Source: Desulfuromonadaceae bacterium (GTDB taxonomy: Bacteria > Desulfobacterota > Desulfuromonadia > Desulfuromonadales > JAHYIW01). From it: 60,019 bases of DNA. Positions 1,174-59,679 of the stretch are shown in pieces. Within the stretch, counting starts at the first letter, position 1. Every line of letters begins with the position of its first letter. The notes below the pieces were generated by a model. It was not told the DNA's origin and made no database searches. It worked only from the letters and a program-made list of their open reading frames with translations. A program made the translations under genes and the position numbers. The stretch lies in the NCBI GenBank assembly GCA_019429445.1, contig JAHYIW010000022.1, positions 1-60,019 of the forward strand, read 5' to 3'.

Positions 1174-1186
1174 CGAACTCGAATTA

Positions 1187-2346: not shown

Positions 2347-2525
2347 TGAGTATTCTCCTCACTGTCAATATTTTTATTCAGTATTTTTTTCAGCAGTTCA
2401 GGAGGGGCCGGATTGGCGTAACCACACCAGGGACAATGAATCTTGCGGCATCCGCCAGGACATGCACCACAAGCAGTCTCAGATAATTTTTCAGGCAATT
2501 CTCGTGCGCAAAAGCCGCATTGCAT
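2343..2525 (-). CDS. small cysteine-rich protein of the feo operon
   Basis: A 60-residue protein with seven cysteines in its first 34 positions: C3/C6, C19/C22, C26 and C31/C34. The CxxC pairs resemble a zinc ribbon or small Fe-S binding protein, followed by a short charged tail. It sits directly between feoB and the DtxR/FeoA gene, abutting feoB and overlapping the regulator start by 4 bases. It therefore belongs to the iron operon. It is not a recognisable FeoC (no winged helix) nor the membrane-anchored FeoB-associated Cys-rich protein. Function is unknown; metal chaperone or FeoB accessory is a guess from position. Confidence 0.75.
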   Translation of the reverse strand: MQCGFCARELPEKLSETACGACPGGCRKIHCPWCGYANPAPPELLKKILNKNIDSEENTQ

Positions 2526-4495: not shown

Positions 4496-4547
4496 CATTA
4501 TCCCTTGTAAAAATGAACATCATATTCAAATCAAAAACAAACAGGTG

Positions 4548-4976: not shown

Positions 4977-4989
4977 ATCTCCTCCACAT

Positions 4990-5005
4990 GAAAATGATTA
5001 TCAAT
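4990..5005 (-). promoter_or_regulatory. Fur box overlapping the fur -10 element
   Basis: On the minus strand the sequence reads ATTGATAATCATTTTC. It matches the Fur consensus core GATAATCATT, with a degenerate outer arm. It overlaps the -10 hexamer and the start region of the fur promoter, where binding would block RNA polymerase. Confidence 0.75.
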
Positions 5006-5031
5006 ATAAGCAATTAACAAAAAGCTGTCAA
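5003..5031 (-). promoter_or_regulatory. sigma70 promoter of the fur-feoB operon
   Basis: On the minus strand there is a perfect -35 TTGACA (5026-5031), a 17-base spacer and a -10 TATATT (5003-5008). It lies about 30 bases upstream of the fur start codon, with GGAGGAG as ribosome binding site. Confidence 0.85.
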
Positions 5032-5090
5032 GATATTTGGTTTGATATTTACTTTGGTGTGGAAACACCCCTGCGGATTTCTACTTCACG

Positions 5091-5846
5091 CTAAAGCAAG
5101 CCGAGCAAGGGGTGCATCTGCGGGATAACCCTGACCTGAGCATGATAACAACTCGCCAGGCACTGCCATTCAACGAGTCGCTCCCCGGAGACTGACGGTA
5201 CTCCGGCGCGAGTTTCCGGTTGCAGGATCAACGGTAGATGAGGGGCACAAGCTCCCGCCAGCTGTGCGGCGCGGCTTATTTCCGCCGGATTGGTCTGCGC
5301 GGACACCACCACCTTGATCTGCCCCTCAAGGGAAATCAATTCACGCAAAAAAGCCTCGTGCTGACCCCACAGATCGGCCTGACCAGAGACCGAGGGGAGC
5401 TTGATATCCGTGGAGATAAAATCGATATATGGCCGGAGTTCTATCAGTTGTGGCGTCAACAAGCCATTTGTTTCGAGCACGATCGGCAGCCGTTGCCGCA
5501 GAACGGGCAACCAGGCCGACAGCTGCGCGGCATGAAGCAACGGCTCACCGCCGGTGATACTGATCGCTTGATGCGGCAGTTGCAGCTGCCAGTCGTCAAT
5601 CAAATCGATAACCGAGAAGAGAGAAAGGGGATTCGACAAAAGACGAAAAACGCCATTACCGGGCAGGGTTTCGATGCGGCAATTATCGCGCGCTTCAAAT
5701 TTGGTATCACAATAAGCGCAGTCGAGCTGGCAGCCGGGAAAGCGGATAAAAACCTGTCGGCAGCCGATCTGCAAGCCCTCCCCCTGTAACGAGGAAAATA
5801 TTTCAATAAGCGGGATATCAGGTGAGACTGTAACTGGCACAGGCAT
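5091..5846 (-). CDS. queE: 7-carboxy-7-deazaguanine synthase QueE (radical SAM)
   Basis: QueE rearranges the tetrahydropterin made by QueD to 7-carboxy-7-deazaguanine. The radical SAM cluster motif CX3CX2C is at C39, C43 and C46, preceded by the family's SLQGEG stretch. The SAM-binding TGGEPLLH is at 98-105. At 251 residues it is of usual size. Its start overlaps the end of queD by 29 bases; a GTG two codons downstream would also serve. Order on the minus strand is yacG-queD-queE. Product passes to QueC (not seen here) and QueF (343-1173). Confidence 0.9.
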   Translation of the reverse strand: MPVPVTVSPDIPLIEIFSSLQGEGLQIGCRQVFIRFPGCQLDCAYCDTKFEARDNCRIETLPGNGVFRLLSNPLSLFSVIDLIDDWQLQLPHQAISITGGEPLLHAAQLSAWLPVLRQRLPIVLETNGLLTPQLIELRPYIDFISTDIKLPSVSGQADLWGQHEAFLRELISLEGQIKVVVSAQTNPAEISRAAQLAGACAPHLPLILQPETRAGVPSVSGERLVEWQCLASCYHAQVRVIPQMHPLLGLL

Positions 5847-6189
5847 AGTCAGATTCCCAAATGTTCACCAACTCGACGGTTACATTGTCGCTGTTCAGAC
5901 AGTCACTGAGTTGTTCGAAAAGAAAACGCGCAATATTTTCCGACGATGGGCTGATTTTGTCGAAGGGCGGAATCTGATTGAGATATTTATGATCCAGCAG
6001 TTTTACAACCGCCGCGCTCTCACGTTTGAGAATCCTGAAATCGATCCCCAGTCCCGCGACATCAAGTTCACGCGCAGCAACGGTGACTTCCACCTTCCAG
6101 TTGTGCCCGTGGAGATTTTCACATTCCCCCTGATAATTAATCAGATTATGCGCCGAGGCAAAGTGGATCTGAATTTTCAATCGATACAT
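5818..6189 (-). CDS. queD: 6-carboxytetrahydropterin synthase QueD
   Basis: A member of the 6-pyruvoyl-tetrahydropterin synthase fold that converts dihydroneopterin triphosphate to 6-carboxytetrahydropterin. Zinc ligands are H14 (FASAH) and H27/H29 (LHGHNW), the catalytic Cys is C23, and the LDHKYLN and E112 residues of the active site are present. At 123 residues it is typical of QueD. It starts 6 bases after yacG ends and overlaps queE, so the three genes look like one transcript. Confidence 0.9.
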   Translation of the reverse strand: MYRLKIQIHFASAHNLINYQGECENLHGHNWKVEVTVAARELDVAGLGIDFRILKRESAAVVKLLDHKYLNQIPPFDKISPSSENIARFLFEQLSDCLNSDNVTVELVNIWESDYACASYSLT

Positions 6190-6195
6190 GCGTCA

Positions 6196-6414
6196 TTACT
6201 CCTTGGGGTCCGGGTCATCAACACCGGGAAATTTGATCAGATTGTCCAGTTCATCGGCCATCGGCGTGCGTCCAGGGATACGGTACCCCTCATCCGCCCA
6301 TTGGCCAAGATCCATCAGACGACAGCGTTCTGAACAAAACGGACGATGAGGGTTATTCTCCCAGCGGACCTTTTTACGGCAGATCGGACAGTTAACGGTG
6401 AGTTGATTGCTCAT
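6196..6414 (-). CDS. yacG: YacG-type zinc protein (DNA gyrase inhibitor family)
   Basis: A 72-residue protein with a four-cysteine zinc knuckle C9/C12...C27/C31 in the context [19 protein letters not shown], diagnostic of the YacG/DUF329 family. The E. coli member binds GyrB and inhibits gyrase; whether this one does is inferred. A GGAG ribosome site precedes the ATG. It is first in the yacG-queD-queE cluster. Confidence 0.88.
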
Positions 6415-6699
6415 TTTTCTCCAGTTAAATCAAAGAGCTCTGGCAACCAGCTATCAGGGCTCGAATCCGTGTGGAGCGGGAAGCTGGGCAAAGTTGTCAG
6501 CACCGAATATAGTGAATCGCAAAAGCTTATAATTCTGGACAACACTCGTCCAGAGGTCAGCAAAGCGGTTCATGTAGGAAAACATAGCATATTCAATGAT
6601 TGGTTGGTGACAGTTTTTACGTCTGGCATTTGCGAGCCGGGAGGATACACCCGGTGCTCATTGATTGACAAGATGAATATCAAGAAGGCTTCCAAATCA
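6415..6699. other. gene-free stretch between yacG and the hsd relic
   Basis: About 285 bases with no recognisable gene. It contains the left copy of the 11-bp tRNA-Gly 3'-end repeat (6472-6482). A 43-codon minus-strand open frame (roughly 6459-6590) has no similarity I recognise, so I do not call it a gene. Confidence 0.5.
6472..6482 (-). repeat. 11-bp direct repeat of the tRNA-Gly 3' end (candidate att remnant)
   Basis: TGGAGCGGGAA here is identical to 8972-8982, the 3' terminus of tRNA-Gly, in the same orientation 2.5 kb away. The segment between holds only restriction-modification debris. This looks like the distal attachment repeat left by an island that used the tRNA gene as target. It is short, so chance cannot be excluded. 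Confidence 0.45.
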
Positions 6700-7690
6700 T
6701 CAACCAACGTGCCATTCATACAGGTACTGCTGAAAACCGATGAAAACCTCCCGAATTTCAGGAATACTTCCCAGACTTGCGGCGGCATCGCTGATAACGT
6801 TGTACTTCACCTCCAGCAGGGTCGGTAGTTTCTCTTGAGCCAGTTCGCCGACCCCTTCCTTGACATACTGATTGAGGACGAACTCCAGAAACTCCTGTTG
6901 TTTATAGTTGTAGCTCTGGCAGATCCGGCCTCTGTGCAGGTTGACCCGTTCTTCCCGGCTGATCGGCGGGAGGGCAAAACCGATGTAGGCGAGGACATCA
7001 AACAGGTCTCTCTTCTCAGCATCGATCATGGTCTTGATCTCAGCCAGCTGTTCACCGCCGAAACCTTTTTCCGCCAGCCCCTCCAGCAGAGCTTTGCGGG
7101 TGTCAGGGACGCCCCAGAGGGCGCGCAGCTCATCTTCGTCCCTAAACAGCGACGGGAGGTCACCGAACAGGCGTTCGATGAACTGGGCGGCGGACATCGG
7201 TTTGCCGTCAGGACCCCAGAAGGTGCTCGCCATCAGGTGCTGGATAACGCGCTCCTTGCCGTCGGCCAGCTTGACGATGACCTTCTTCGGCTTTTTGACA
7301 CAGACGCACGGCTTCTCGCCGCACTCGGGGCAGGGGCAGACACAGGGGCGCTCGCCGCAGTTGCTGCAGGGGCAGATGCAGGGGGAGTCGCCGCAGACCG
7401 TGCACGGCTCCTTGACGCAGGCGCAGGGGTGATTACCGCACTTCGGGCAGGGGTCCGGCTCCATCGGCTCGCCGTCCCACTCGGGATCGTTGAAATGCTT
7501 GTACGCCTGGACGAAGTCGTAGAGGGTGAAATAGTCCTTGCCGTCGCAGAGGCGCGTCCCCCGGCCGATGATCTGCTTGAACTCGATCATCGAGTTGACC
7601 GGGCGCATCAGGACGATATTGCGGATATTGCGGGCATCGACGCCGGTGGAGAGTTTCTGCGAAGTGGTCAGGATGGTGGGGATGCTCTTT
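6700..7690 (-). pseudogene. hsdR: type I restriction enzyme R subunit, C-terminal part after frameshift
   Basis: The frame resumes at KSIPTILTTSQKLSTGVDA and continues through the helicase motif VI region (IGRGTRLC) to the natural HsdR C-terminus. Relative to the family, one base is missing next to the T-run at 7688-7691. This shifts the reading frame out of the upstream segment (7668-8753). A striking insert carries four tandem CxxCGxxPCxC units, 16 cysteines in all. With no nuclease domain or Walker A box anywhere in the locus, this piece cannot encode a working enzyme. It is transcribed away from tRNA-Gly. Confidence 0.85.
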
Positions 7691-8753
7691 TGTTGTCCTG
7701 AAAGGTGCGCAGAAACTGTTCCCCCAGCGCCCCGTCGTTGGCCGTCACCCGCACGCAGTAGTTGGGAGCGCTGCTCGTCTTGATCTGGTTGATCAGGTCG
7801 CGCGCCGCCAGCGCATGGATCTGCGTCGCACAAAAGACCAGAGTCTTCTGTTTCTGGTCGATATGCCCCATGAAGAGCTTCACCCGGTAAGCTTCGCGTT
7901 CCTTGATCTCGATGATCTTGTTGAAATCGGCCTCTTCGTAGAGCTTCCCCGGCTCCACCTCGCCATCAAGGACCCGATCGTCAGAAGTATAGATATAATC
8001 GTCCAGGGTGGTGGCGATCTGGTTGACCTTGAACGGCGTCAGGAAGCCGTCGTTGATCCCCTCCTTGAGCGAGTAGATATAGACCGGATCGCCAAAGTAG
8101 GCGTAGGTATCGGTGTTCCCCTTGCGCTTGGGGGTCGCGGTCAGGCCCAGCTGCACGGCGGGTGAGAAGTATTCCATGATGCCGCACCAGCTGCTCTCGT
8201 CATTCGCCCCGCCCCGGTGACATTCGTCGATGATGATGAAATCGAAGAAGTCCGGGGGGTAATCGCCAAAGCTGGGAGCCGGATTCCCCGCGGCGTCCTG
8301 TCCCGACATGAAGGTCTGGAAGATGGTGAAAAAGATACTGCCGTTCTTCGGCACGCGCCCCTTTTTGCGGATCTCATCGGGAGCGATCCGCACCAGGGCG
8401 TCTTCGGGAAAGGCGGAGAAGGCATTGAATGCCTGATCGGCGAGGATGTTGCGGTCGGCCAGACCGCGATCAACAAAGTTGATCAGATCGTCACCGGTCA
8501 GGGCGGTATCGTGATCAAAATCGCCATTCGCCTTCTTCGGTGCGGCCCACTGCGACCACTGGAACTGGCTGTCAATGATGAACCCATACGACTTGCCGAC
8601 CAGTTCAGCCTTCATGGCGCGCTCACGCTCAAGGTCATCCAGATATTTGAGAAACAGCATCCATGAGGACTGCTCGGTGTAGTCAAGTTCGGAAGAGCAG
8701 CCAGCTTCTTTCCAGAGAACGTCGTCGATATTTTTAAAGATTTGCTGAAATAT
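7668..8753 (-). pseudogene. HsdM N-terminus fused to HsdR helicase core (deletion remnant)
   Basis: The first ~97 residues after 8753 (FQQIFKNIDDVLWKEAG ... TGDDLINFVDR) are the N-terminal domain of a type I modification methylase HsdM. Near 8460 the frame runs directly into the HsdR helicase region (LADRNILADQ, then DEAD-like IIIDECH and LTATPKRK). One deletion has removed the rest of hsdM, hsdS and the HsdR nuclease/Walker A part. The ancestral start appears mutated: ATA at 8751-8753 sits the right distance after AAAGGAA. The frame is open upstream to 8849 without HsdM similarity. It ends in a frameshift near 7691. Confidence 0.85.
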
Positions 8754-8930
8754 TGGTTTCCTTTGGGAGTTATGGGGATAAATATCTAACTCCACGTTGC
8801 AAAACAAAAAAAGACACCCCGGCCCGATCGCCAAAATGCCTTCCATCATTTTTTAAAACATCTTTACCACCCAACCCTCTACTGCATCGCAAAAAGAACA
8901 TTGTTCATACCACAGTATCAACAAACATAA

Positions 8931-8967
8931 AAACAAAGGGCCAGGCAATCAGCCTAACCCTTTGTTT
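8931..8967 (-). terminator. rho-independent terminator of tRNA-Gly
   Basis: A 10-bp perfect stem AAACAAAGGG/CCCTTTGTTT with a 17-base loop, followed on the minus strand by a T-rich run. It lies just downstream of tRNA-Gly. The flanking A/T runs make it potentially bidirectional. Confidence 0.8.
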
Positions 8968-8971
8968 TTAC

Positions 8972-9046
<75 letters not shown>

Positions 9047-9075
9047 TCAAACCGGCGTGATTATAGGGTGGCCGC

Positions 9076-10410
9076 TCAATTAAAGTCAAACACTTTCTCC
9101 TGGTTCAGGACTAAAAATTCGGCGGCTGAATCTGCGTCATGTACAGATCCGAAAATTTCTGCTTCACGAAGTAAATTCAGTGCTTTACCTGTCTGTGGCC
9201 CGTCAATATCCGGAAATAATCGGCGCATATCATCGCCGTTCATGAGACTGTCAATATGTCCGTCGCGGGCCAGAGACAACCAGTCTGTGGCCACCTTTTC
9301 AAGCCCGTCAAGAACATCTCTGGACGGATTCAATAAAGATAACAGCAGCAGCGCCGAAGCGGGGTCACTGTCCAGACTGGCCGCCCAGAGAGCGCGTGCG
9401 CGGCAATTGTCCGCAACCTGTCGGCACGCATCACCATGGTCAGGCTTGAGGCGGGTCAACCGTGCCAGCAATTCACAGTTACGTCGGCTGAGGCGTAACC
9501 GCTCACTAAACCATCCGCTCTGGAGCGGAGTTCCTGCCCGATAAAAACAACACAGCTTTAAAAATGTCAATCGCTTAATGTCATCGTGAATACGTGCCCT
9601 CCCCAGGCTGGACAGGGTTGGACAAATGTCCGCAGATAATTGATCCACCTGGGCCTCGTATCGCTTCACGATGGCGGCACGTTCATCCCATTTACCCTGA
9701 TCATCAGCGGTGCCGAAGACCAGTCCATCAATCCCTGCCCGGCGCAGCTGATCAAGATAGTCACCACAGCGAACCGCCAGCAACTTCACAAGTTCATCGC
9801 GCAACCGTTCTCCAGGGGAGTATTTCAGATATTTCCCCGAGATGCACATTTGATCGAACGTCGCGTTGTCAATCGTCAACCGGTGTGTTGTCGCCAGACG
9901 AATACCACGCAGAACACGTACAGGATCATTTTCAAAGGCGCCGCGAGTACACATTCGTAACGCCGCCGCCCGTAGCGCCTCAAGCCCCCCTAAAGGATCA
10001 AGCAGTTCGTGATCCTCAGCCGTCACCTCCCACGCCATGGCATTCAATGTAAAATCACGGTCACGCAGATCGGCATGGATATCGGCCCCGCGCAACGGTG
10101 CAAAGTCGGCGGTGAAGCGTTCCCCCTCATGCCACCAGAGAACGCGATATTGCAACCGTTCCTCATCAAGCATAAAGCAACGTCCTGACAGCGCAGCTGC
10201 GAAAGCATGAGCAATCGCGGCAGGAGGAACGGATAAGGAAAAATCAAAATCGCCAGGAGGCTTGCCGAGGAACGCGTCGCGTAACGCTCCCCCGGCAAGC
10301 CACAATCTTGTCCCCGGCGGAACAACACGCTTCAGAACCGGGGTGAGCCCGATGGCGGACAGCAGACAAATCAGATCGGCTGGGACAAAGTTTTTTTCGG
10401 GGATTGCCAT
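9076..10410 (-). CDS. CCA-adding enzyme / poly(A) polymerase family nucleotidyltransferase
   Basis: A 444-residue class II tRNA nucleotidyltransferase-like protein. The head domain shows the nucleotidyl transfer signature LAGGALRD (38-45) plus DFDF (54-57), the RDRDFTLNAMAWE motif and the ENDPVRVLRGIRLA motif of the neck region. A helical C-terminal part follows. Members either add CCA to tRNAs or polyadenylate RNA; sequence alone does not separate the two here, although the length and C-terminal body favour a CCA-type or A-adding enzyme. Its direct neighbour on the same strand, tRNA-Gly, already encodes CCA. Confidence 0.85.
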   Translation of the reverse strand: MAIPEKNFVPADLICLLSAIGLTPVLKRVVPPGTRLWLAGGALRDAFLGKPPGDFDFSLSVPPAAIAHAFAAALSGRCFMLDEERLQYRVLWWHEGERFTADFAPLRGADIHADLRDRDFTLNAMAWEVTAEDHELLDPLGGLEALRAAALRMCTRGAFENDPVRVLRGIRLATTHRLTIDNATFDQMCISGKYLKYSPGERLRDELVKLLAVRCGDYLDQLRRAGIDGLVFGTADDQGKWDERAAIVKRYEAQVDQLSADICPTLSSLGRARIHDDIKRLTFLKLCCFYRAGTPLQSGWFSERLRLSRRNCELLARLTRLKPDHGDACRQVADNCRARALWAASLDSDPASALLLLSLLNPSRDVLDGLEKVATDWLSLARDGHIDSLMNGDDMRRLFPDIDGPQTGKALNLLREAEIFGSVHDADSAAEFLVLNQEKVFDFN

Positions 10411-49674: not shown

Positions 49675-49767
49675 GATTGATCGTCCTGGGTCAGGGCGAA
49701 AAGAGCTTTTGACGATTCGCCGAAAGACATTTAGTTTGTTATGTCCCCCCCTATGGTACAGTATCCT

Positions 49768-49777
49768 GTACATGTAC
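49768..49777. promoter_or_regulatory. YefM-YoeB operator-like palindrome
   Basis: GTACATGTAC is a perfect palindrome upstream of yefM, with a further GTACA at 49756-49760. E. coli YefM binds TGTACA core motifs in its operator, so this is the expected autoregulatory site. Confidence 0.65.
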
Positions 49778-49794
49778 TAAAAAGGAGAATTGAC

Positions 49795-50046
49795 ATGGAT
49801 GCTATTTCGTACACCAACGCTCGAAGCAATTTAGCAAAAACAATGGAAAAAGTATGCACCGACCATGACCCCGTCATTATTACGCGTCGCAACGAAAGCT
49901 CGGTCGTTATGATGTCTCTTGAAGATTTTCAGGCTCTTGAAGAAACCGCATATTTACTCAAAAGCCCGAAAAATGCTCGACGTCTTTTGGAGTCGATTGC
50001 CCAGTTGGAATCAGGGGACGGCACTGAGCGGGAGCTTTCTCTGTGA
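49795..50046 (+). CDS. yefM: YefM-family antitoxin
   Basis: An 83-residue Phd/YefM antitoxin: N-terminal DNA-binding/dimer domain (ISYTNARSNLAKTMEKVCTDHDPVIITRRN, VVMMSLEDFQAL) and an acidic C-terminal tail that neutralises the toxin. ATG 49795 with AAAGGAG upstream. Overlaps the yoeB start by 4 bases. Represses its own promoter, probably via the palindrome at 49768-49777. Confidence 0.92.
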   Translation: MDAISYTNARSNLAKTMEKVCTDHDPVIITRRNESSVVMMSLEDFQALEETAYLLKSPKNARRLLESIAQLESGDGTERELSL

Positions 50047-50297
50047 AACCCATTTTTTCCAAAAATGCATGGGAAGATTACCAGTATTGGCTGAAGACTG
50101 ACAGTAAAATCCACAACCGGGTGAACGCATTGATTCAGGACATCCAGCGTTCACCTTTTTCTGGCGTCGGCAAGCCCGAAGCGCTGAAGCATGGTTTGTC
50201 GGGCTATTGGTCCAGACGAATCAACGATGAGCACAGAATCGTTTATAAAGTTGATGGCGCGGCTGTATTTATTGCTCAACTTCGTTACCATTACTGA
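50043..50297 (+). CDS. yoeB: YoeB-family mRNA interferase toxin
   Basis: An 84-residue RelE-superfamily endoribonuclease that cleaves mRNA on the ribosome. The YoeB catalytic residues E46, R65, H83 and Y84 are all present, and the C-terminal RYHY is canonical. Codons 37-78 are contained in a 127-bp segment duplicated exactly at the end of the window. Confidence 0.92.
   Translation: MKPIFSKNAWEDYQYWLKTDSKIHNRVNALIQDIQRSPFSGVGKPEALKHGLSGYWSRRINDEHRIVYKVDGAAVFIAQLRYHY
50151..50277 (+). repeat. 127-bp exact repeat, copy 1 (inside yoeB)
   Basis: Identical over 127 bases to 59893-60019; the base before differs (T here, C there). It lies inside an intact gene. Confidence 0.97.
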
Positions 50298-50344
50298 TTT
50301 TCGCACAACCCGTCGGGATCAGATCGCGCGGATTTCGGCTGCGT

Positions 50345-50539
50345 TCACTTTTTATCCTCTACCTTTTTCATTTTCTTGCCGGGTGGCAAAAAGCTTTCTA
50401 CTGTGACCACCGATTTGCCGGTCATTGCGGCTTCAATGCAGCACTCATCATTCACAACGGAGACGCCGACAGGCACGGGGCGAAAAGAACAGCCCCGTTG
50501 GATGAAGGATGAAACCGAGCACTTGCATGAGTCGCTTTA
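50345..50539 (-). other. start-less Cys-rich open frame between the two toxin-antitoxin pairs
   Basis: About 64 codons are open on the minus strand (SCKCSVSSFIQRGCSF, then VNDECCIEAAMTGKS), ending in a Lys-rich tail. The frame begins after two stops with no start codon at its upstream end. I recognise no family. It overlaps the promoter of the second pair, so it may be chance or a decayed gene. Confidence 0.25.
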
Positions 50540-50551
50540 TTAGTCTATATT
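50523..50551 (+). promoter_or_regulatory. sigma70 promoter of the second toxin-antitoxin pair
   Basis: TTGCAT (50523-50528), 17-base spacer, TATATT (50546-50551). It lies 37 bases upstream of the antitoxin ATG. Confidence 0.75.
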
Positions 50552-50564
50552 TTGATCATAAACA

Positions 50565-50574
50565 GATTCGAATC
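50565..50574. promoter_or_regulatory. palindrome downstream of the toxin-antitoxin promoter
   Basis: GATTCGAATC, a perfect 10-bp palindrome between the -10 box and the AGGAGG ribosome site, suitably placed as an antitoxin operator. Confidence 0.45.
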
Positions 50575-50588
50575 AAGGAGGTACAGTA

Positions 50589-50879
50589 ATGAGAACTATT
50601 TCAATCAGCAATGACATTGTCCCAATTGCAGAATTTAAAACCAATATTTCCAAGTGGTTCAAAACACTTCAGACATCCGGACACCCACTTATCATTACCC
50701 AAAACAGCAAACCAGCTGGTGTACTGTTGTCCGCTGCGGATTACGATGAATTGGTTTACCGAAAATCTTTTCTTGATTCTGTTGAGAGAGGGATTACAGA
50801 CGTTGAAAGCGGGCGTACACAAACTACAGACGAACTACGAAAAACCCTGCGAGCCAGAAGAAGTGCGGGTAATCCATGA
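50589..50879 (+). CDS. Phd/YefM-family antitoxin
   Basis: A 96-residue antitoxin with the Phd/YefM fold pattern (IVPIAEFKTNISKWFKTLQTSGHPLIITQNSKPAGVLLSAADYDEL) and a charged C-terminal tail. The toxin start overlaps its end by 4 bases. AAGGAGG ribosome site. Different from yefM just upstream, so a separate module. Confidence 0.88.
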   Translation: MRTISISNDIVPIAEFKTNISKWFKTLQTSGHPLIITQNSKPAGVLLSAADYDELVYRKSFLDSVERGITDVESGRTQTTDELRKTLRARRSAGNP

Positions 50880-51175
50880 GCGTAACATGGTCACAGGAAG
50901 CTGGTGAAAATCTGGTTGATATCGAGGAGTTTATTGCACGTGACAGTGTAGAGCGCGCTGTTCGGATTGTTGATGCCCTCATTGACCATACTGAAGAAAT
51001 TTTGGCTGACAATCCAAGAAGCGGAAGGACTGTGCCAGAAACAGGTAGTCCTGATATTCGAGAGCTTATTTACCGAGGATATCGCATTGTCTACCGATTG
51101 AATGGTGATCGAATTGAAATACTTACCGTTTTTGAAGGGCATCGACTATTGAGACTGAGCGAATCAGGTGATTAG
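50876..51175 (+). CDS. ParE/RelE-family toxin
   Basis: A 99-residue RelE/ParE-superfamily toxin: helical N-terminus (EAGENLVDIEEFIARDS), then PRSGRTVPE, the conserved IRELIYRGYRIVYRL and a C-terminal VFEGHRLL. The helix pattern is closer to ParE than to YoeB. Whether it targets gyrase or mRNA cannot be told. Translationally coupled to its antitoxin. Confidence 0.85.
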   Translation: MSVTWSQEAGENLVDIEEFIARDSVERAVRIVDALIDHTEEILADNPRSGRTVPETGSPDIRELIYRGYRIVYRLNGDRIEILTVFEGHRLLRLSESGD

Positions 51176-51439: not shown

Positions 51440-53251
51440 TCAGGTTATCTTCTGCTGGTCAGAGTCCAGAGGCTCCACATGAGCCTGTGTTGGGTGTAGA
51501 TGGTCAGTCGGACTCGATTTCCAGCGCGCTAAAACCAAGGACTGCAGTGCTGCCGCGATGCCGAAGGCGAAGATTCCAGCGACCAGCCAGGTCCCTTTGA
51601 TCTGGAATAAATCGATGATGAAAACCTTGCTGCCGCCGATAATCATCAACAGAATTGCGACATTTCTCAGTTCCTTGTTGTGACGGAAGATTGCCAGAAA
51701 AATCAGCAGGATCGCAGCCAGATTGATCGTCACTGACTGGGCACCAGTGAAGGCGGTGGCAAAATCACCGCGATAGTAAGTCTGCAAGCCGTAGGCAACG
51801 ATCGTCATGATCATAAAGAAACCGTTAACCAGTCCGGCGAACAAGGGCAGTAAAGCCATTTTATCCTGTTTATCGAAGCGCTCAAAGGCCCGCGAATGCT
51901 CTGGCGGTTTATTTTCGCGGCAGTAACGATAATGATAGAGGGCGGACAAAGCGCACAAGGTTGCTACCAGCAGGGTCACGCCGGACCGCACGGCACTCTC
52001 CGCACTGATCAGCTCAACGGCAAGAATCAGGCTGACATAACCCTGCAACAGATACGCGGTCATGCGCATGCCACCACTGGACCATTTGTTCGAATAGTAA
52101 CAGACGATAAACGCCAGCACGGACAGTACCGGCAGCGGCAGCAGCATGTCACCAAGGATCGCTGGCAGAGACAAGCCGGCCAAAATAACGCCACCGGCAG
52201 TAAAGGTGTTGGTGCCTGGGGCATGCAGGCGCTGCCGCTCGGAAAGTCTGAAAGCCAGAGCAAAGTGAATAATTGCCGCTGCTGCCGCCGGCGCCCCGAA
52301 CAGGGTCGGGTCTTTCAGCGCATAAATCCCGGCGACGTAGCACCAGCCGGCGTTGACAGCCGGGAGCGAAAAATCAAACCTGGAGATCTTTTCGTCGCCG
52401 CTGCGGATAATGCCGAACAAGGAAATCAGCATAAAAGTGCCGCCGATCAAAGCAACAATCGGGATAAACCAGTCAGGCGACAGGTGTTCGGCGGCGCTGC
52501 CGCGACTGAGCAACCCAGTCAATTTCATCCCCCAGATCTGCAGCATGAAGTGGGTGGTAAACAACAAAATCCAGCGCAACCAGGAGCAGCGCTTCAGGCG
52601 GCTGGCAAAATAGCCCAGAACGTTGGACAGCCAGAGAACCAGCCCCAGGTAGGGGAAGTAGGGGTTGGGGTAATCAATGGCAACGGCAGCCAGACACATG
52701 CCAAACGTGCCGACTATAATCGGCAGGGCAGTTTTCGTGGTATAACTGATGACCGCCATGCAGATCCCGGTTATAGCCAGCATACTGTAAACCAACTCCA
52801 CCGGAATGGCAGAGTGGCGGGTGTAGGTCTCGACCAGCACGCTGAACATCAACAGCCCGCCAGTGGTGGTGAAAATGGGTGCCATGCTCTGTTGTTTACG
52901 GTACAGCAGATACCCGCCGACGATTAAAATTGCAGCATAGCCCATGCCCAGGGCGGTGCCGATATGCAGGTCGAGCATGTCGTTGTCGGTCAGCGCGCGC
53001 AGGCCAAGGGCGGCAACCAGCAGGAAGCAGATGGTTGAGATGTGTTGCAGCAGGGAGCTGCTGCCGACTAGAAGCGTCGCTTCATTGGGAATGAGTTCTT
53101 CTTTTTGGGTCGGCTTGGTGACCTGGGAACGACTGGTGAAGGCTCCAGTTGCGCCCCGTTGCTCTAGTTCAGCAACCTGTTTGCTGAGTTGCTGGAGCTG
53201 GAGTTCCAGTTGTTCAACACGGGCTTCAAGCGGGGATGGCTCTGTGCTCAT
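51440..53251 (-). CDS. large polytopic membrane protein, DUF2339-like
   Basis: A 603-residue protein with an N-terminal coiled-coil (LEARVEQLELQLQQLSKQVAELEQ, about 8-32) and roughly sixteen hydrophobic segments to the end. This coiled-coil-plus-many-helices plan is that of DUF2339 proteins, which have no assigned biochemical role. Monocistronic with its own terminator. Family membership is a best guess from architecture. Confidence 0.72.
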   Translation of the reverse strand: MSTEPSPLEARVEQLELQLQQLSKQVAELEQRGATGAFTSRSQVTKPTQKEELIPNEATLLVGSSSLLQHISTICFLLVAALGLRALTDNDMLDLHIGTALGMGYAAILIVGGYLLYRKQQSMAPIFTTTGGLLMFSVLVETYTRHSAIPVELVYSMLAITGICMAVISYTTKTALPIIVGTFGMCLAAVAIDYPNPYFPYLGLVLWLSNVLGYFASRLKRCSWLRWILLFTTHFMLQIWGMKLTGLLSRGSAAEHLSPDWFIPIVALIGGTFMLISLFGIIRSGDEKISRFDFSLPAVNAGWCYVAGIYALKDPTLFGAPAAAAAIIHFALAFRLSERQRLHAPGTNTFTAGGVILAGLSLPAILGDMLLPLPVLSVLAFIVCYYSNKWSSGGMRMTAYLLQGYVSLILAVELISAESAVRSGVTLLVATLCALSALYHYRYCRENKPPEHSRAFERFDKQDKMALLPLFAGLVNGFFMIMTIVAYGLQTYYRGDFATAFTGAQSVTINLAAILLIFLAIFRHNKELRNVAILLMIIGGSKVFIIDLFQIKGTWLVAGIFAFGIAAALQSLVLARWKSSPTDHLHPTQAHVEPLDSDQQKIT

Positions 53252-53655: not shown

Positions 53656-53684
53656 TTGATATATAAAACAGTTTTCTATATATT
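53656..53684 (+). promoter_or_regulatory. sigma70-type promoter of electron-transfer module 1
   Basis: TTGATA (53656-53661), 17-base spacer, TATATT (53679-53684) in very AT-rich DNA, 175 bases upstream of the cytochrome ATG. Confidence 0.65.
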
Positions 53685-53859: not shown

Positions 53860-54471
53860 ATGAAAAGAAAATTATCTGTGGTTGCCTTGATCTTTGTTGG
53901 GCTGCTGTCTTTTATCTGTCTCGGAGTGACCGAGCCGGTGCAGGCGGCGAAAGAAAAATATTTTGATCGCTCCGGTCGGCTGATCGTCACAGAGCAGCCG
54001 GCTGCAGATCTGTTACGGGTCTACGATACGAAAAACAGAGAACCCGAAAAGACCTTTCCGGTTCCGGCGCTGCCTTTTTCGGAGGGGATCTTTCCCTGCA
54101 GCGACTGTCATTCGGGCATGGAGCCGAATCTGCAGCGCCGGGAACTTGAAGATATGCACACCGATATCATCCTGAATCACGCTGAAGGGCAGCGCTGGTG
54201 TCTAGATTGCCATAATCCGAACGATCGCGATGTACTGCGGTTGGTTAATGGTGAGACCGTTCCTTTTGAAGAGTCTTACCTCCTCTGTGGGCAGTGCCAC
54301 GGTGATAAGTTGCGTGACTGGAAGGTTGGGATACACGGAAAGCGAACCGGGTACTGGAACGGTGACAAGACTTTTCTGCTTTGCGTTCATTGTCACAATC
54401 CACATGACCCAAGTTTCAAACCTTTAAGGCCCCTCCCGCCGCCAGTGCGGCCAGGAGAAGAGCGGCACTAA
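53860..54471 (+). CDS. periplasmic tetraheme c-type cytochrome, module 1
   Basis: About 203 residues with a signal peptide (MKRKLSVVALIFVGLLSFIC, cleavage near 30) and four heme sites: CSDCH (80-84), CLDCH (114-118), CGQCH (143-147) and CVHCH (175-179). The C-terminus is proline-rich. It would pass electrons between the NrfD/FeS complex and periplasmic acceptors. ATG 53860 with GAGGA is preferred over the upstream ATG at 53812. Followed after 30 bases by the FeS gene. Confidence 0.87.
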   Translation: MKRKLSVVALIFVGLLSFICLGVTEPVQAAKEKYFDRSGRLIVTEQPAADLLRVYDTKNREPEKTFPVPALPFSEGIFPCSDCHSGMEPNLQRRELEDMHTDIILNHAEGQRWCLDCHNPNDRDVLRLVNGETVPFEESYLLCGQCHGDKLRDWKVGIHGKRTGYWNGDKTFLLCVHCHNPHDPSFKPLRPLPPPVRPGEERH

Positions 54472-54501
54472 TTACCAGCAGTTTATTAGGGAGATAGACC
54501 T

Positions 54502-55428
54502 ATGGCGGATCATAAAGAATGCAAGCACAGCCCTGTTGAAATCACCCGGAGAGAGGCCCTGCATGGCATGGTAGCAGGCCTTGGTGTCTTGGCGATGCCG
54601 GCCAGCGATGCGTCGGCTTCGGTCTGGGAAGCGTTTTTTCAAAAACACTTTCGCGAACTTAGCAAAGAAGAGCTGACGCAGACGCTGGCGCGCTTGAGTT
54701 CTGAATACAGCGAAGAGTTCGGCAAGGAGATCACGGTCAAAGCGACTCCGGCAATCGAAGGCGTCAAATACGGCTATGGCCTGGACTTGTCCCGTTGTAT
54801 CGGCTGTCGGCGCTGCGTTTATGCCTGCGTTGGCGAAAACAACCAGTCCCACGATCCCCAGATCCACTGGATTCGAGTGGTGCAGCTTAATAAAGAAAAA
54901 GGCACCTCGCTGGAATATGCCGAGCATTATTACAACCCAGAGCTGGTTCCGGAAAAGGGGCATTTCTATATGCCGATCCAGTGTCAGCAGTGCGAAAATC
55001 CGCCATGTACCAAGGTCTGCCCGGTTCAGGCGACCTGGAAGGAGAAGGACGGAATCGTTGTCGTTGACTATAACTGGTGCATCGGTTGTCGCTACTGTAT
55101 GGCCGCCTGCCCTTATGGCGCTCGTCACTTTAACTGGACCAAGGGGCAGCTGCCGGCTGAAAACATGAATACCGATACGCATTATCTGGGCAATCGGCCG
55201 CGGCCGAAGGGGGTGGTGGAAAAGTGTACCTTCTGTATTCAGCGGACGCGCGAGCAGCCTGGACGCTATCCGGCCTGCGAGGAAATCTGCCCGGTCGGCG
55301 CACGCAAGTTCGGCAATCTGCTCGATCCGAATGGCGAGCTGCGCTACCTGATTGAAAATAAGCGTGTTTTTATCCTTAAGGAAGAGCTGAATACGCAGCC
55401 GAAATTTTACTATTTCTATGCGACCTAA
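54502..55428 (+). CDS. Tat-exported 4x[4Fe-4S] electron-transfer protein, module 1
   Basis: A 308-residue DmsB/HybA/NrfC-type protein. The Tat signal has RR at 16-17 (ITRREALHGMVAG). Ferredoxin-like clusters are bound by CIGCRRCVYAC, CQQCENPPCTKVC, CIGCRYCMAAC and CTFCIQRTREQPGRYPACEEIC, four [4Fe-4S] sites. Links the NrfD quinone site to cytochromes or a catalytic subunit. Stop lies 17 bases before nrfD. Confidence 0.9.
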   Translation: MADHKECKHSPVEITRREALHGMVAGLGVLAMPASDASASVWEAFFQKHFRELSKEELTQTLARLSSEYSEEFGKEITVKATPAIEGVKYGYGLDLSRCIGCRRCVYACVGENNQSHDPQIHWIRVVQLNKEKGTSLEYAEHYYNPELVPEKGHFYMPIQCQQCENPPCTKVCPVQATWKEKDGIVVVDYNWCIGCRYCMAACPYGARHFNWTKGQLPAENMNTDTHYLGNRPRPKGVVEKCTFCIQRTREQPGRYPACEEICPVGARKFGNLLDPNGELRYLIENKRVFILKEELNTQPKFYYFYAT

Positions 55429-55445
55429 CGTATTGGAGTGATGTT

Positions 55446-56738
55446 ATGAGAAATATCTGGTCGTTTTTTATGGGCACTTTGCTGTTGGTGAGTAAGGGGA
55501 GCAAGGCCTACTACATTTGGGTGGCTACGCTGCTGACGATCGCTGGATTCGGGGTTATGGGTTATCTGTATCAGCTCGACCAGGGGCTAGTTGTGACTTC
55601 GATGAAGGATCAGGTGTCCTGGGGTTTCTATATCTCAAACTTCACCTTTCTGGTCGGTGTCGCTGCAGCCGCGGTACTGCTGGTCATCCCGGCGTACGTT
55701 TACCATTGGAAACCGATTAAAGAGATCGCGGTGCTCGGTGAATTGCTAGCCATCTCGGCAATCTGCATGTGTCTGATGTTTGTCACCGCCGACATCGGCC
55801 GACCGGACCGCTTCTGGCATCTGATTCCCAAGATTGGTCTGCTGAACTTCCCGCAGTCGCTGTTGGCCTGGGATGTGGTGGTTCTAAATATTTACCTGAT
55901 CATCAACCTGACCATCGCTGTTTATATTCTTTATGAGACCTATTATAAGCGGACGCCGAACAAGAACTTTCTTACCCCGCTGCTGCTGCTGTCGATTCCG
56001 GCCGCAATCTCAATCCACACGGTCACCGCGTTTCTTTACAATGGCCTGGGCGCGCGCCCGTTTTGGAACGCCTCAATTTTAGCGCCACGCTTTCTGGCGT
56101 CGGCCTTTTGTTCCGGGCCGGCATTTATGATCCTCCTCTTTCTGCTGATCCGTAATTACACCAAGTTCAAGATCAAGGACGAAGCGATTCACAAGGTCGC
56201 CGAACTGATCGCCTATGCCATGTTTGTCAACCTGCTGCTGTTTGGTGCTGAAGTTTTTAAAGAATATTATACCGACAATGTCCATCTGGCACCTTTACAA
56301 TACTTGTTGCAGGGGTATCACGGGCATAGCGCCCTGGTTCCCTGGATCTGGACGGCGTTGATCTTTAACGTCACGGCCTTTTTCATCTTTCTGATTCCGG
56401 AATCGCGGAAAAACCCTGTCACGCTGGTTCTTGGTTGCATCATGATTTTTGTCGGTGTCTACATTGAAAAGGGGATGGGTCTGGTTATTCCAGGGTTTAT
56501 TCCGGATGTCCTGCACGAAATCTACGAGTACTCACCGAGTTATATTGAGATCATCGTCAGTATGGGAATCTGGTCGCTAGGAATGCTGATTTTTACATTG
56601 CTGCTACGCGTCGGTATTCCGATCCTGAACGGCGATTTTCACGTTGCCGCGGATGGTGTTGGGTCGCATATTGGCGATCAACTGTTTTTCGTCGGTAAGC
56701 AGAACCAGGAAGAAGAGAAAGAGGCGGCGCACGATTAG
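55446..56738 (+). CDS. NrfD/PsrC-family quinone-interacting membrane protein, module 1
   Basis: A 430-residue integral membrane protein with about ten helices, the NrfD-superfamily fold (HybB-like): first helices with SWGFYISNFTFLVGVAAAA, a GRPDRFWHL loop and a late helix EIIVSMGIWSLGMLIFTLLL. Handles quinol oxidation or quinone reduction and may contribute to proton translocation. Acidic C-terminal tail. Confidence 0.88.
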   Translation: MRNIWSFFMGTLLLVSKGSKAYYIWVATLLTIAGFGVMGYLYQLDQGLVVTSMKDQVSWGFYISNFTFLVGVAAAAVLLVIPAYVYHWKPIKEIAVLGELLAISAICMCLMFVTADIGRPDRFWHLIPKIGLLNFPQSLLAWDVVVLNIYLIINLTIAVYILYETYYKRTPNKNFLTPLLLLSIPAAISIHTVTAFLYNGLGARPFWNASILAPRFLASAFCSGPAFMILLFLLIRNYTKFKIKDEAIHKVAELIAYAMFVNLLLFGAEVFKEYYTDNVHLAPLQYLLQGYHGHSALVPWIWTALIFNVTAFFIFLIPESRKNPVTLVLGCIMIFVGVYIEKGMGLVIPGFIPDVLHEIYEYSPSYIEIIVSMGIWSLGMLIFTLLLRVGIPILNGDFHVAADGVGSHIGDQLFFVGKQNQEEEKEAAHD

Positions 56739-57062
56739 TCTTCTTGTGATGCTCGGGAAAATGACCGAATAGCGACTTTAATTTTATTAATTAATCATAT
56801 GAGCGACGTAAAAACTGAAAAAACTAAAATATCTATATTTAACAGGATGTTATGCGAGTATAAATTTGGAGCGAACAGTGTTTTAAGGATTGACAGTAAA
56901 AAAATAAAATACTATTTTACTGCGCGCTAGGGATTTCGCTGACTCGTTTTCCGTGAAATAGCTGATCTAGAGCGTTGAGCCCAGCCCCTCGTTTGAAATC
57001 TAAATTTGCCAACAGTTCGACAATAAAATCAGTTTGCGTCTATTAGCAGGAAGGGAAAAATA
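56739..57062. other. AT-rich intergenic region between the two modules
   Basis: 324 bases without a gene. Carries a promoter (56890-56918) and AGGAAGG before the second cytochrome. No riboswitch or terminator hairpin is obvious after the first NrfD gene. Confidence 0.6.
56890..56918 (+). promoter_or_regulatory. sigma70 promoter of electron-transfer module 2
   Basis: Perfect -35 TTGACA (56890-56895), 17-base A-rich spacer, -10 TATTTT (56913-56918), about 145 bases upstream of the GTG start. Confidence 0.65.
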
Positions 57063-57551
57063 GTGAAAAGTCATGTTTGGCGACCGCTCTTTGTGGTCAT
57101 CGTTCTGCTGGTCGTAATCCTGGTGTTTCGTCTTTTCTATGTTCCGAACGATTTCCAGTCGGGTGAATATGGTTTCATGTACTCATTCCATCGCGCTTCC
57201 AACGAAGGTGAATGGAAAGCAATGCCGGTGAAATACAGAGATACCGGTAAGACCAATATGCACGAGTACTGCGGTGAGTGTCACGGTGATGAGGTTAAGG
57301 TTCGCAACGAAGACCTCCACGGCATTATCGCTTGTGAAAACTGCCATGGTCCAGCTTACAATCACCCGGAAGATCCGGAAAAGCTGGTGATTGATCGCAG
57401 TCGCGGGCTTTGTCTGCGTTGCCACACCGATCTGCCATATACCACCAGTGAACGAAAGCGGATCCCCGGCATTGACCCGAAAGAGCACAACGTTGATGAA
57501 GAATGTGTGAGCTGCCACAATCCGCACAATCCGCGATTGGAGGAGATGTAA
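57063..57551 (+). CDS. membrane-anchored tetraheme c-type cytochrome, module 2
   Basis: A 162-residue protein with an uncleaved-looking N-terminal membrane anchor (about 8-24) and four heme sites: CGECH (70-74), CENCH (91-95), CLRCH (117-121) and CVSCH (148-152). Shorter than its module 1 counterpart. GTG start behind AGGAAGG. It is followed after 2 bases by the FeS gene. Confidence 0.87.
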   Translation: MKSHVWRPLFVVIVLLVVILVFRLFYVPNDFQSGEYGFMYSFHRASNEGEWKAMPVKYRDTGKTNMHEYCGECHGDEVKVRNEDLHGIIACENCHGPAYNHPEDPEKLVIDRSRGLCLRCHTDLPYTTSERKRIPGIDPKEHNVDEECVSCHNPHNPRLEEM

Positions 57552-57553
57552 TA

Positions 57554-58327
57554 ATGAAACGGCGTGATTTTCTGAAAAAAACGATCATGGTTGTGGCTGG
57601 CGCCTCTGTCCCGCTCTCGGCTCTTGATCTTGTCGACCCGAAGGAAGTTCTGGCGGCAAATCCAGACATCCACTGGGCCTTTCTGATTGATACCCACAAA
57701 TGTGTCGGTTGCGGTTTCTGTGTCAAGGCCTGTAAAACTGAAAACGATATTCCCTTCGATGCCAAGGTCACCCGAACCTGGGTTGAGCGCTACGTCTATA
57801 CCAAGGATGACCGTCGTTACGTCGACAGTCCCGACGGTGCTCTGTACGGTTATACCGAATCACGGATCGACCTCGGTCAGGGTAACTTCAAAGAGATCGA
57901 TCCAGCGAATGTCGGTAAAGCTTTCTTCGTGCCGAAGCTTTGTAATCACTGCGAAACACCTCCTTGTACCCAGGTCTGTCCGGTTGGTGCCACCTATAAA
58001 ACTGACGACGGCGTGGTGCTGGTTGACCGTTCCTGGTGTATCGGCTGCGGTTACTGCATCATGGCCTGCCCGTACGGTGCGCGCTTCTTCCATCCGGTAG
58101 AAAAGGTTGCTGACAAGTGTACCTTCTGTTATCACCGCATCACCAAAGGGCTGGAGACGGCCTGCGTCAACGCCTGTCCTTTTGGTGCCCGTGAAATGTG
58201 CAACATTAGGGATATTAATGAACCGACGACTAAGATCATCATGAATCAGCGGGTCGGGGTACTTAAAGACGAATTCGGGACCAGGCCACAGGCCTTCTAT
58301 ATTGGTCTGGCACAGGAGGTGCGTTAA
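57554..58327 (+). CDS. Tat-exported 4x[4Fe-4S] electron-transfer protein, module 2
   Basis: About 257 residues; MKRRDFLKKTIMVVAG is a Tat signal (RR at 3-4). Four clusters: CVGCGFCVKAC, CNHCETPPCTQVC, CIGCGYCIMAC and CTFCYHRITKGLETACVNAC. Clear paralogue of the module 1 protein but without its 70-residue N-terminal extension. ATG 57554 has GGAG just upstream. Confidence 0.9.
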   Translation: MKRRDFLKKTIMVVAGASVPLSALDLVDPKEVLAANPDIHWAFLIDTHKCVGCGFCVKACKTENDIPFDAKVTRTWVERYVYTKDDRRYVDSPDGALYGYTESRIDLGQGNFKEIDPANVGKAFFVPKLCNHCETPPCTQVCPVGATYKTDDGVVLVDRSWCIGCGYCIMACPYGARFFHPVEKVADKCTFCYHRITKGLETACVNACPFGAREMCNIRDINEPTTKIIMNQRVGVLKDEFGTRPQAFYIGLAQEVR

Positions 58328-58329
58328 TC

Positions 58330-59625
58330 ATGCTTGAACAAGCCGCACATTTAGTTGTCCACGGCGAAGCCTGGACTGTCAAAGAGCTTTTCGTTCTGCC
58401 GAACGAGTATATTTACTGGTCGATCCAGATCGTCATGTACCCCTTCATGACCGGTCTGGTTGCCGGAGCATTCGTGCTCTCCTCGCTTTACCACGTGTTT
58501 CATGTTGAGAAGCTTAAGGAAATCGCGAAATTCTCACTGGTCTTCTCGTTCTCCCTGCTACCGGTGGCGATGATGCCATTGCTGCTGCATTTGCAGCAGC
58601 CGTTTCGTGGCATAAACGTCATGATGACACCGCATTTTACCTCGGCGATCGCGGCCTTCGGGATCGTTTTTACCACTTACGCTTGTATCGTCGCGACGGA
58701 ACTCTGGTTTGTCTACCGGGCCTATTTCGTCACGACTGCTCTGGAATTGAAGGCAAAGGCGAATAAGGGCGCCATCGACACGTTTCGCCAGCTGCTCTTC
58801 TCAGTGCTCACACTGGGCGCCTGGGACATCAGCAAGGAAGCGCAGCAAAAGGACCATAAGGCCTGCACAAAAATGGCCGCCATCGGTATCCCGGTCGCCT
58901 GTTTTTTGCACGGTTACGCCGGTTTCATCTTCGGTTCGGTCAAAGCTAACGCTCTCTGGATGACCCCGCTTATGCCGGTTATCTTCATCTGTTCGGCGGT
59001 TGTTTCCGGAATCGCGCTTTGCATTCTCTATTACGTTGTGGTTCAGGAAGCGCGCAAATTTATGGCGCGTCGCAAGCTGGCCCGTTGGGCGAAGGATCCA
59101 TCTGCGCCGACGGCTGAGCAGCTCGAAGGGGCCAAAAAAGAAGAGGTTGAGATAACCTCTAACTACCTGATGTACTTCATGATTGCTGCAATAACTTTGG
59201 AAATCCTGGACTTGATATTCCGTGGTTATACTCAAGTCAAGTCATGGGATATCCTGCGCGAAGTCATCATGGAGCGTGACTTTATCAAGATCTTCGTTCT
59301 CCAGTATGGGCTTGGAAACGCGCTACCCTTCCTGATGATGGTTCTGCCTGGGCGCAACGTCCGTCGTACCACCATCGCCTGTGCGCTGGTGTTGTTCGGC
59401 GTGTTCATGATGCGCTGGAACGTCGTTATCGGTGGCCAGGCATTCTCTTTGAGCTTCGCCGGATTCATGCACTATCATCTGCCGATCATCCCGCACGATA
59501 TGGAGACCTTCAAGGAGGGTTTGTTCGGCGCGCTGACGGTTATGACGACTCCGTTCGTGCTCTTCTATTTTCTCAACATGATTTTCCCGGCCTTTATGGT
59601 CGACAAGGAAGATGCCCAGCATTAG
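58330..59625 (+). CDS. NrfD/PsrC-family membrane protein, module 2
   Basis: A 431-residue multi-helix protein (about nine or ten segments) of the NrfD superfamily, with MYPFMTGLVAGAFVLSSLYHVF and LHGYAGFIFGSVKANALWMTPLMPVIFICSAVVSGIAL, the region around the predicted quinone pocket. It differs clearly from the module 1 homologue, with a long cytosolic loop (about 240-275). Last gene of the unit, followed by a terminator. Confidence 0.88.
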   Translation: MLEQAAHLVVHGEAWTVKELFVLPNEYIYWSIQIVMYPFMTGLVAGAFVLSSLYHVFHVEKLKEIAKFSLVFSFSLLPVAMMPLLLHLQQPFRGINVMMTPHFTSAIAAFGIVFTTYACIVATELWFVYRAYFVTTALELKAKANKGAIDTFRQLLFSVLTLGAWDISKEAQQKDHKACTKMAAIGIPVACFLHGYAGFIFGSVKANALWMTPLMPVIFICSAVVSGIALCILYYVVVQEARKFMARRKLARWAKDPSAPTAEQLEGAKKEEVEITSNYLMYFMIAAITLEILDLIFRGYTQVKSWDILREVIMERDFIKIFVLQYGLGNALPFLMMVLPGRNVRRTTIACALVLFGVFMMRWNVVIGGQAFSLSFAGFMHYHLPIIPHDMETFKEGLFGALTVMTTPFVLFYFLNMIFPAFMVDKEDAQH

Positions 59626-59655
59626 ACCCGCTAGCATTCGCTTCTGCACATTCAG

Positions 59656-59679
59656 CCCCCTGTTTTCAGGGGGTTTTTT
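59656..59679 (+). terminator. rho-independent terminator of electron-transfer module 2
   Basis: CCCCCTG/CAGGGGG stem with a TTTT loop, followed by T6, 30 bases after the NrfD stop. Confidence 0.88.

Follow-up and report, generated by a model that had tools for sequence, protein, structure and literature searches.

What do two consecutive sets of genes for a tetraheme cytochrome c, an exported iron-sulfur (FeS) protein and an NrfD-type membrane protein accomplish when no catalytic subunit is encoded alongside them? The question is raised by a stretch of 60,019 nucleotides from a Desulfuromonadaceae bacterium (contig JAHYIW010000022.1 of assembly GCA_019429445.1), which is the whole contig and is called the window below, and whose end lies 394 bases 3' of the second set. 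Here, we compare both sets, referred to as modules 1 and 2, across 277 genomes of the same class (Desulfuromonadia) and beyond it, and hold with fair confidence that the six genes form one cassette, passed on and exchanged as a whole, and would specify two menaquinol:periplasmic cytochrome c oxidoreductases that most probably work jointly. The six genes are as follows.

53860..54471, + strand: C1, the tetraheme cytochrome c of module 1, exported (ATG start; four CXXCH motifs)
54502..55428, + strand: F1, Tat-type protein with four [4Fe-4S] clusters, DsrO-like (176.7 bits, below the 200-bit cut-off)
55446..56738, + strand: N1, NrfD-family membrane subunit, DsrP-like (421 bits against a cut-off of 350)
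57063..57551, + strand: C2, CbcS-like tetraheme cytochrome c of module 2, with a membrane anchor (GTG start; four CXXCH motifs)
57554..58327, + strand: F2, Tat-type protein with four [4Fe-4S] clusters of module 2, CbcT-like (ATG start)
58330..59625, + strand: N2, NrfD-family membrane subunit of module 2, CbcU-like (Pfam NrfD)

Two modules of different families

The start codons of the six open reading frames (ORFs) were refined from the sequence, and motifs and Pfam matches bear out the original prediction of two consecutive sets of tetraheme cytochrome c, twin-arginine translocation (Tat)-type FeS protein and NrfD subunit at these places. F1 and F2 have 16 cluster-type cysteines each and, read by eye, an N-terminal twin-arginine motif (RREALHG in F1, RRDFLKK in F2); N1 and N2 match Pfam NrfD (PF03916, E 6e-39 and 3e-34) and are the only proteins of the 2.9-Mb genome to do so at E <= 0.001; and the four CXXCH motifs are kept in 44 of 44 distinct C1 homologues (coverage >= 80%) and in 125 of 126 distinct C2 homologues. 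Also by eye, C1 begins with a signal peptide and C2 with an N-terminal helix that looks uncleaved, in agreement with the predicted difference between a secreted and an anchored cytochrome. The sets had further been described as two diverged copies; the divergence is real, with identities of 21% for N1/N2 (232 columns), 36% for F1/F2 and 30% for C1/C2 (115 columns), but the word copies is misleading, as the families differ. Judged by their sequences, the modules are old paralogues, and a recent tandem duplication is ruled out by the 21-36% identity between them together with their different nearest families.

Residues of the quinone site are conserved in both modules. D116, S138 and K342 of N1 are invariant in 17 of 17 rows, and H87 and S105 of N2, which align with D116 and S138 of N1, in 31 of 31. 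The CxxCxYC cluster motif includes a tyrosine that 42 of 43 F1 and 127 of 129 F2 sequences retain; it is taken by its position, not by alignment, for the Tyr that QrcC is described as needing for its reaction with quinone (PMC13059093). Given these residues and this tyrosine, both modules should react with menaquinone at the periplasmic side. In the mechanism that we propose, the NrfD subunit of each module would bind menaquinol near the periplasmic face, and the exported FeS subunit would relay the electrons over its four [4Fe-4S] clusters to the tetraheme cytochrome c, which would hand them on to the pool of periplasmic cytochromes, module 1 serving as a DsrJOP-like unit that works without DsrMK and module 2 as a unit of the Cbc4 type. 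Alongside oxidases of CbcL and ImcH type, the modules would probably serve respiration whose acceptors are extracellular or periplasmic, and it is the setting beside genes of these two types that favours quinol oxidation, a direction that sequence cannot tell. Gene content, kept quinone-site residues, linked inheritance, the shared slot and the finding of no molybdoenzyme nearby are observed in the sequences, and we infer the direction of electron flow, the coupling of the two modules and the acceptor.

AlphaFold models of N1 and N2, of middling quality (mean predicted local distance difference test score, pLDDT, 70-71) and used for the fold only, find their nearest solved folds in the NrfD-like chains ActC/ActF of alternative complex III, which is likewise described as having two NrfD-like subunits (PMC8076601). 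Unlike that complex, the cassette adjoins no ActB-type molybdopterin-like gene (ActD and ActE were not searched by model), and both its NrfD subunits keep the quinone-site residues, whereas one of ActC/ActF has lost the site. Among the structures of the Protein Data Bank (PDB), N2 has no sequence relative, even by profile, and C1 no meaningful one. By the description in PMC11434368, SirCD of Shewanella, an FeS and NrfD quinol dehydrogenase that feeds several respiratory pathways, is a further likeness.

The original prediction could fit the gene sets to no named complex, and here it can be replaced: module 2 is of the CbcSTU/Cbc4 type and module 1 is DsrJOP-like. The Cbc4 complex (CbcSTU) is reported to comprise a tetraheme cytochrome c, an FeS protein and an NrfD-type subunit and to be highly conserved in Geobacteraceae (PMC11434368, PMC7894505, PMC10989804). 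Module 2 has the same components in the same order, c2-f2-n2, in all mapped loci whose contig reaches far enough; N2 finds matches at E <= 1e-100 in 153 of the 277 class genomes, and the module is present in loci of Geomonas spp., Citrifermentans bremense, a Geotalea sp. and Geobacter sp. OR-1 (among the best 80 of 354 relatives). Loci of the Geobacteraceae type in which module 2 stands alone, termed solo loci, are about 66-73% (n2), 57-70% (f2) and 47-56% (c2) identical to the window. One solo orthologue lies directly 5' of narGHJ in the metagenome-assembled genome SKS4.bin16 (L226), and in a table of PMC10989804 the gene numbers of G. metallireducens place CbcSTU-2 beside nar genes; from this make-up and nar neighbour, the Geobacteraceae solo loci would be the loci named cbcSTU. 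The name is thus given from family, make-up and setting, not from G. sulfurreducens sequences: no class genome has a PpcA above 86%, and the species is absent among the loci of the best 80 of 354 relatives. What sets module 2 of the window apart from Cbc4 is its union with a second, DsrJOP-like module.

Module 1 resembles the JOP part of DsrMKJOP in its order of cytochrome, FeS and NrfD genes, in its DsrO-like F1 and in N1, which exceeds the NCBIfam DsrP cut-off. Of the 20 DsrP1 residues listed in a table of PMC8076601 for a quinone site, two proposed proton half-channels and a Lys gate, N1 rows keep 17, 15 of them in 16 of 16 paired-module rows and Y62 and H280 in 15 of 16, as judged from an alignment that includes 34 DsrP rows, 30 of them distinct, and is numbered in parallel with the published residues. 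Module 1 differs in other respects. F1 falls short of the DsrO cut-off, whereas the true DsrO of locus L299 scores 322.6 bits; C1 has no DsrJ match at E 0.01 and is a tetraheme rather than a triheme cytochrome, a true DsrJ scoring 179 bits; and the DsrM, DsrK and DsrJ genes that accompany DsrP in L299 are missing beside module 1. A quick tree of 72 rows separates DsrP from the module-1 family by a branch with support of 100, the class paralogue L091 standing on the DsrP side and long branches being flagged. Module 1 would therefore be a DsrJOP-like module without DsrMK, outside true DsrP.

Neither module fits the other systems of this kind that we compared. N2 passes no NCBIfam cut-off (37.8 against 347.6 bits for the NrfD model, 20.6 against 570 for QrcD), and no NrfA is encoded in the operon, which separates the cassette from NrfABCD; with N1 at 51.5 of the 570 bits for QrcD and no molybdopterin-type gene beside the cassette, it is distinct from QrcABCD as well.

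Linkage and probable exchange of the six genes

Module 1 (identity >= 74%) occurs in 40 of the 277 class genomes and stands beside module 2 in 38 of them, so that the tandem, whose conservation had been proposed as a check, is indeed conserved, as NrfD-type quinol-to-cytochrome modules in relatives of metal reducers. In 33 of the 40, N1 and N2 share a strand, with N1 upstream by at most 4 kb; three more (G028, G050, G085) have c2 after n1 on a contig that then ends, and G054 and G046 carry the modules in divergent orientation. Same-strand Desulfuromonadia loci have 62-718 bases between the modules. Both modules also adjoin each other in six of 13 labelled n2 loci of Nitrospirota, and a reversed order, module 2 before module 1, is seen in five of these (L205, L208, L216, L230 and L235) as well as in L283, which comes from a distant genome of the phylum to which the window belongs, with module 1 first across a 3-kb gap in the Nitrospirota locus L237. 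The recurrence of the same pairing in different gene orders would speak for a function. The available texts of the open-licence literature yielded no description of a paired DsrJOP-like and CbcSTU cassette.

Module 2 of paired loci also differs in sequence from that of solo loci. Leaving out Nitrospirota, N2 is 73-86% identical to that of the window in paired loci (33 rows) and 65-74% in solo loci (52 rows), and wherever the flank is readable module 2 of the paired type is always accompanied by module 1 (33 rows of Desulfuromonadia with a paired label). Ten columns of C2, 16 of F2 and 11 of N2 are typical of the paired type and rare (<= 10%) in solo types; all 11 in N2 fall within residues 236-348, away from H87 and S105, and paired C2 has extra residues with no counterpart in solo types, including a His that precedes the first heme motif by three positions. 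These columns are candidate contact or potential-tuning sites, which is not proof of either role.

The tree of n2 was built from 127 distinct rows, 29 of them unlabelled, of which 15 were set to solo because no module-1 match was listed in their genomes and 14 were left out, giving 113 rows. Some paired labels derive from match coordinates and those of G028 and G050 from contig ends, and solo labels required 3.5 kb upstream, in part with only 1.5 kb downstream. This tree and those of the neighbouring genes are quick trees, the latter built without a mixture model and with Nitrospirota left out. On the n2 tree the 33 paired Desulfuromonadia rows form one branch, requiring a single change of state, with support of 98 for 32 rows and a weaker attachment (67) of the long-branched G054. 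Trees of the genes that flank the cassette tell another story: pairing changes 12 times on that of the CbcL-type neighbour (33 loci), 12 times on that of the ImcH-type neighbour (54) and 16 times on that of a DUF2339 gene (50), about equal to the means obtained with shuffled labels (11.3, 11.7 and 16.6) and confirmed by a recount with a second routine, whereas n2 trees of the same loci (31, 54 and 48 rows) need one change each. Paired loci are closest to a solo locus in seven of 15 cases for the CbcL-type gene, 10 of 13 for the ImcH-type gene and 11 of 21 for DUF2339. One change on the n2 tree against many on the neighbour trees points to exchange of the six genes as a unit in a fixed slot.

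A pair of genomes from one genus illustrates the point. In G037 (paired) and G027 (solo) the CbcL-type, ImcH-type and DUF2339 neighbours are 95%, 94% and 83% identical, and the cassette genes 51% (c2), 65% (f2) and 71% (n2); the cassette of G037 is instead 78-90% identical to that of G049, a member of a different family with unlike neighbours (37 and 56%). Nine genus codes (g1, g14, g25, g27, g36, g50, g74, g76 and g78) include both states, one of them being the window's own genus (G000 paired, G001 solo), and in the draft genome G104, which may be mixed, a paired copy and a solo copy have similar flanks. It seems, then, that the six-gene form repeatedly replaces, or is replaced by, the three-gene form as a unit in one slot. 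Differential loss of two old copies may have produced the same pattern instead, but it too would need many events, and its outcome for linkage is identical. Cbc4 is conserved in Geobacteraceae, and the swap between three and six genes in one chromosomal slot, both forms being found inside nine genus codes, provides natural matched pairs, with which the contribution of the DsrJOP-like module to quinol oxidation can be tested.

Alternatives to joint action

That six genes are inherited and swapped as one unit suggests that their products work together. Several observations weigh against this reading. Two genomes (G242, locus L160; G244, L159) have module 1 alone, module 2 being missing from the stretch and, at E 1e-100, from the whole genome; in G243 (L224) an unlabelled n2 of the paired type (80%) lies on a contig that ends inside c2, and no module-1 match is listed in that genome, which is 88% complete; and solo module 2 is common, and so able to work without module 1. 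Paired and solo forms of Nitrospirota are mixed in the tree, with no branch of their own, and tight coupling is accordingly shown only for Desulfuromonadia. At least four of 15 module-1 loci outside the class adjoin a molybdoenzyme (part of the large ORFs having been scanned). Within N1, three of the DsrP1 residues, R152 and K162 on the N-side and T194 on the P-side, are kept in none of 16 rows, and the CbcL/ImcH-type pair of the window's genome, the two genes adjacent to each other, lies on another contig (C8).

Some of these points favour the explanation offered by the original prediction, namely two independent, alternative quinol oxidases that are tuned to different acceptor potentials and merely lie side by side. 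Each module is found alone elsewhere, a promoter-like site lies between them, and CbcL, ImcH and CbcBA are described as a precedent of potential-tuned alternatives (PMC12307469). Against it, the paired type of module 2 is seen only together with module 1 (33 paired Desulfuromonadia rows), G243 being the one unreadable case, and the pair is exchanged as a unit. These two results weaken the explanation without refuting it, and we regard it as rather unlikely.

Another possibility, that both modules form one obligate hetero-complex with two different quinone-reactive NrfD subunits, is hinted at by the strict co-inheritance in Desulfuromonadia, the paired-specific columns at N2 236-348 and the extra residues of paired C2. 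We consider such a complex doubtful; as one example, it might be a quinol machine with two sites, whose DsrP-type, proton-coupled half would drive the Cbc4 half or be driven by it.

A third explanation is that the modules feed electrons to a periplasmic reductase encoded elsewhere in the genome. In the search for a catalytic partner, six molybdopterin seeds were run with phmmer against 94 loci of >= 9 kb (28 paired, including Nitrospirota, 61 solo and five unlabelled), the 13 ORF hits of a seventh seed, a NuoBCD-type fusion, having been set aside. None of the 28 paired loci has a molybdoenzyme match, within flanks of varying length and by a search that distant molybdoenzymes could escape, in keeping with the predicted lack of a catalytic subunit; matches occur in three of the 94 loci (L086, L209 and L226), that of L086 belonging to a distinct operon that includes FeS and NrfD genes of its own. 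The original prediction had reasoned that an oxidoreductase gene directly downstream in relatives would make these ordinary subunits of a known enzyme; as regards molybdoenzymes, the search found no such gene in any of the 28 paired loci, and some distant relatives of each module taken singly do have one. Outside the class, module 1 adjoins enzymes of NapA type (L284 and L285), ArrA-like (L294) and QrcB/ArrA/PhsA-like (L292), none over its family cut-off, and four loci have an octaheme cytochrome weakly like hydrazine dehydrogenase (58-71 bits, cut-off 900). Within the class, relatives of module 1 at 58-60% stand beside a NarG-like gene (L089) and an ORF of like size (L090). In other classes of the phylum, module-1-type genes before NapA- or ArrA-like enzymes seemingly provide quinol input for periplasmic reductases.

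In support of a partner in trans, then, stand these molybdoenzymes and octaheme cytochromes beside module 1 and the solo module 2 that precedes narGHJ. The genome of the window itself speaks against one: no PF00384 gene lies in the window, the three PF00384 proteins of the genome all have a 2Fe-2S NuoG-type N-terminus, and NrfA, on contig C6, is rejected as the partner, as it already has an NrfH-like gene beside it. We consider a partner in trans quite improbable. Taken with solo module 2, the outside-class loci imply that neither module needs the other by design, and module 1 may be a plug-in electron input joined to different outlets by lineage, its usual neighbour in Desulfuromonadia being Cbc4. 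In L284, the order over 1065-10272 is octaheme cytochrome, c1-f1-n1, HEAT protein, tetraheme cytochrome, NapA-type enzyme and NapG-like protein.

Hardly credible is the idea that module 1 is a remnant of the DsrMKJOP sulfite-reduction complex, to which the DsrP-level score of N1 lends itself and against which stand a genome search that found no DsrA and no DsrK over its cut-off (best 45 of 400 bits; DsrM not searched by model), the tetraheme rather than triheme cytochrome, F1 below the DsrO cut-off and the place of N1 outside DsrP in the tree. A working Dsr complex is refuted by the lack of DsrA, of DsrK over the cut-off and of a triheme DsrJ. The NCBIfam model NF045798, a DsrP equivalog, nevertheless calls N1 a DsrMKJOP subunit in this genome, and a DsrP call alone is thus no sign of sulfate reduction.

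Setting of the cassette

Among loci of >= 14 kb outside Nitrospirota, a CbcL- and/or ImcH-type gene lies near the slot in 15 of the 20 paired loci and 39 of the 47 solo ones. The CbcL-type neighbour (h9) has nine c hemes and a membrane part, and the ImcH-type neighbour (h5) a NapC/NirT part, by Pfam, and several hemes, the features of both types being taken from PMC9129911 and PMC6295460; the NapC/NirT part and ImcH-type make-up rule out that h5 is NrfA. Such a quinol oxidase gene close by is a neighbour of the cassette, not its catalytic subunit. The ImcH-type match in the window's genome has its reported stop outside a 505-codon open frame. A fast-diverging DUF2339 gene accompanies the cassette in 16 of the 20 paired loci and 22 of the 47 solo ones with the same minimum length, and is also found in the window, where the remaining features around the cassette are these.

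51440..53251, - strand: DUF2339 membrane protein, a frequent neighbour of the cassette
53656..53684, + strand: sigma-70-like match 5' of module 1 (consensus match only, 10/12)
56890..56918, + strand: sigma-70-like match between the modules (consensus match only, 10/12)
59654..59675, + strand: terminator-like hairpin with a T run 3' of module 2, the best such hairpin found

Separate promoters for the two modules had been predicted, and a promoter-like site does precede each; the two 10/12 matches are the whole basis for them, with 14 sigma-70-like sites found against 6.4 +/- 2.4 in shuffles.

Upstream, ORF reading places two small pairs of antitoxin/toxin-like genes at 49741-51175, flanked by the DUF2339 gene and by a GltD-like oxidoreductase gene. 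The contig end, 59888-60019, is a 132-base, 99% copy of 50146-50277, which lies inside a RelE/YoeB-like toxin gene (50043-50297, named from reading its translation), and this copy is probably the reason why the assembly breaks there. Near module 2 of another locus (L210, 4079-6118) lies a PF00361 antiporter-like protein, which belongs to a 29-member ORF cluster among the 94 loci.

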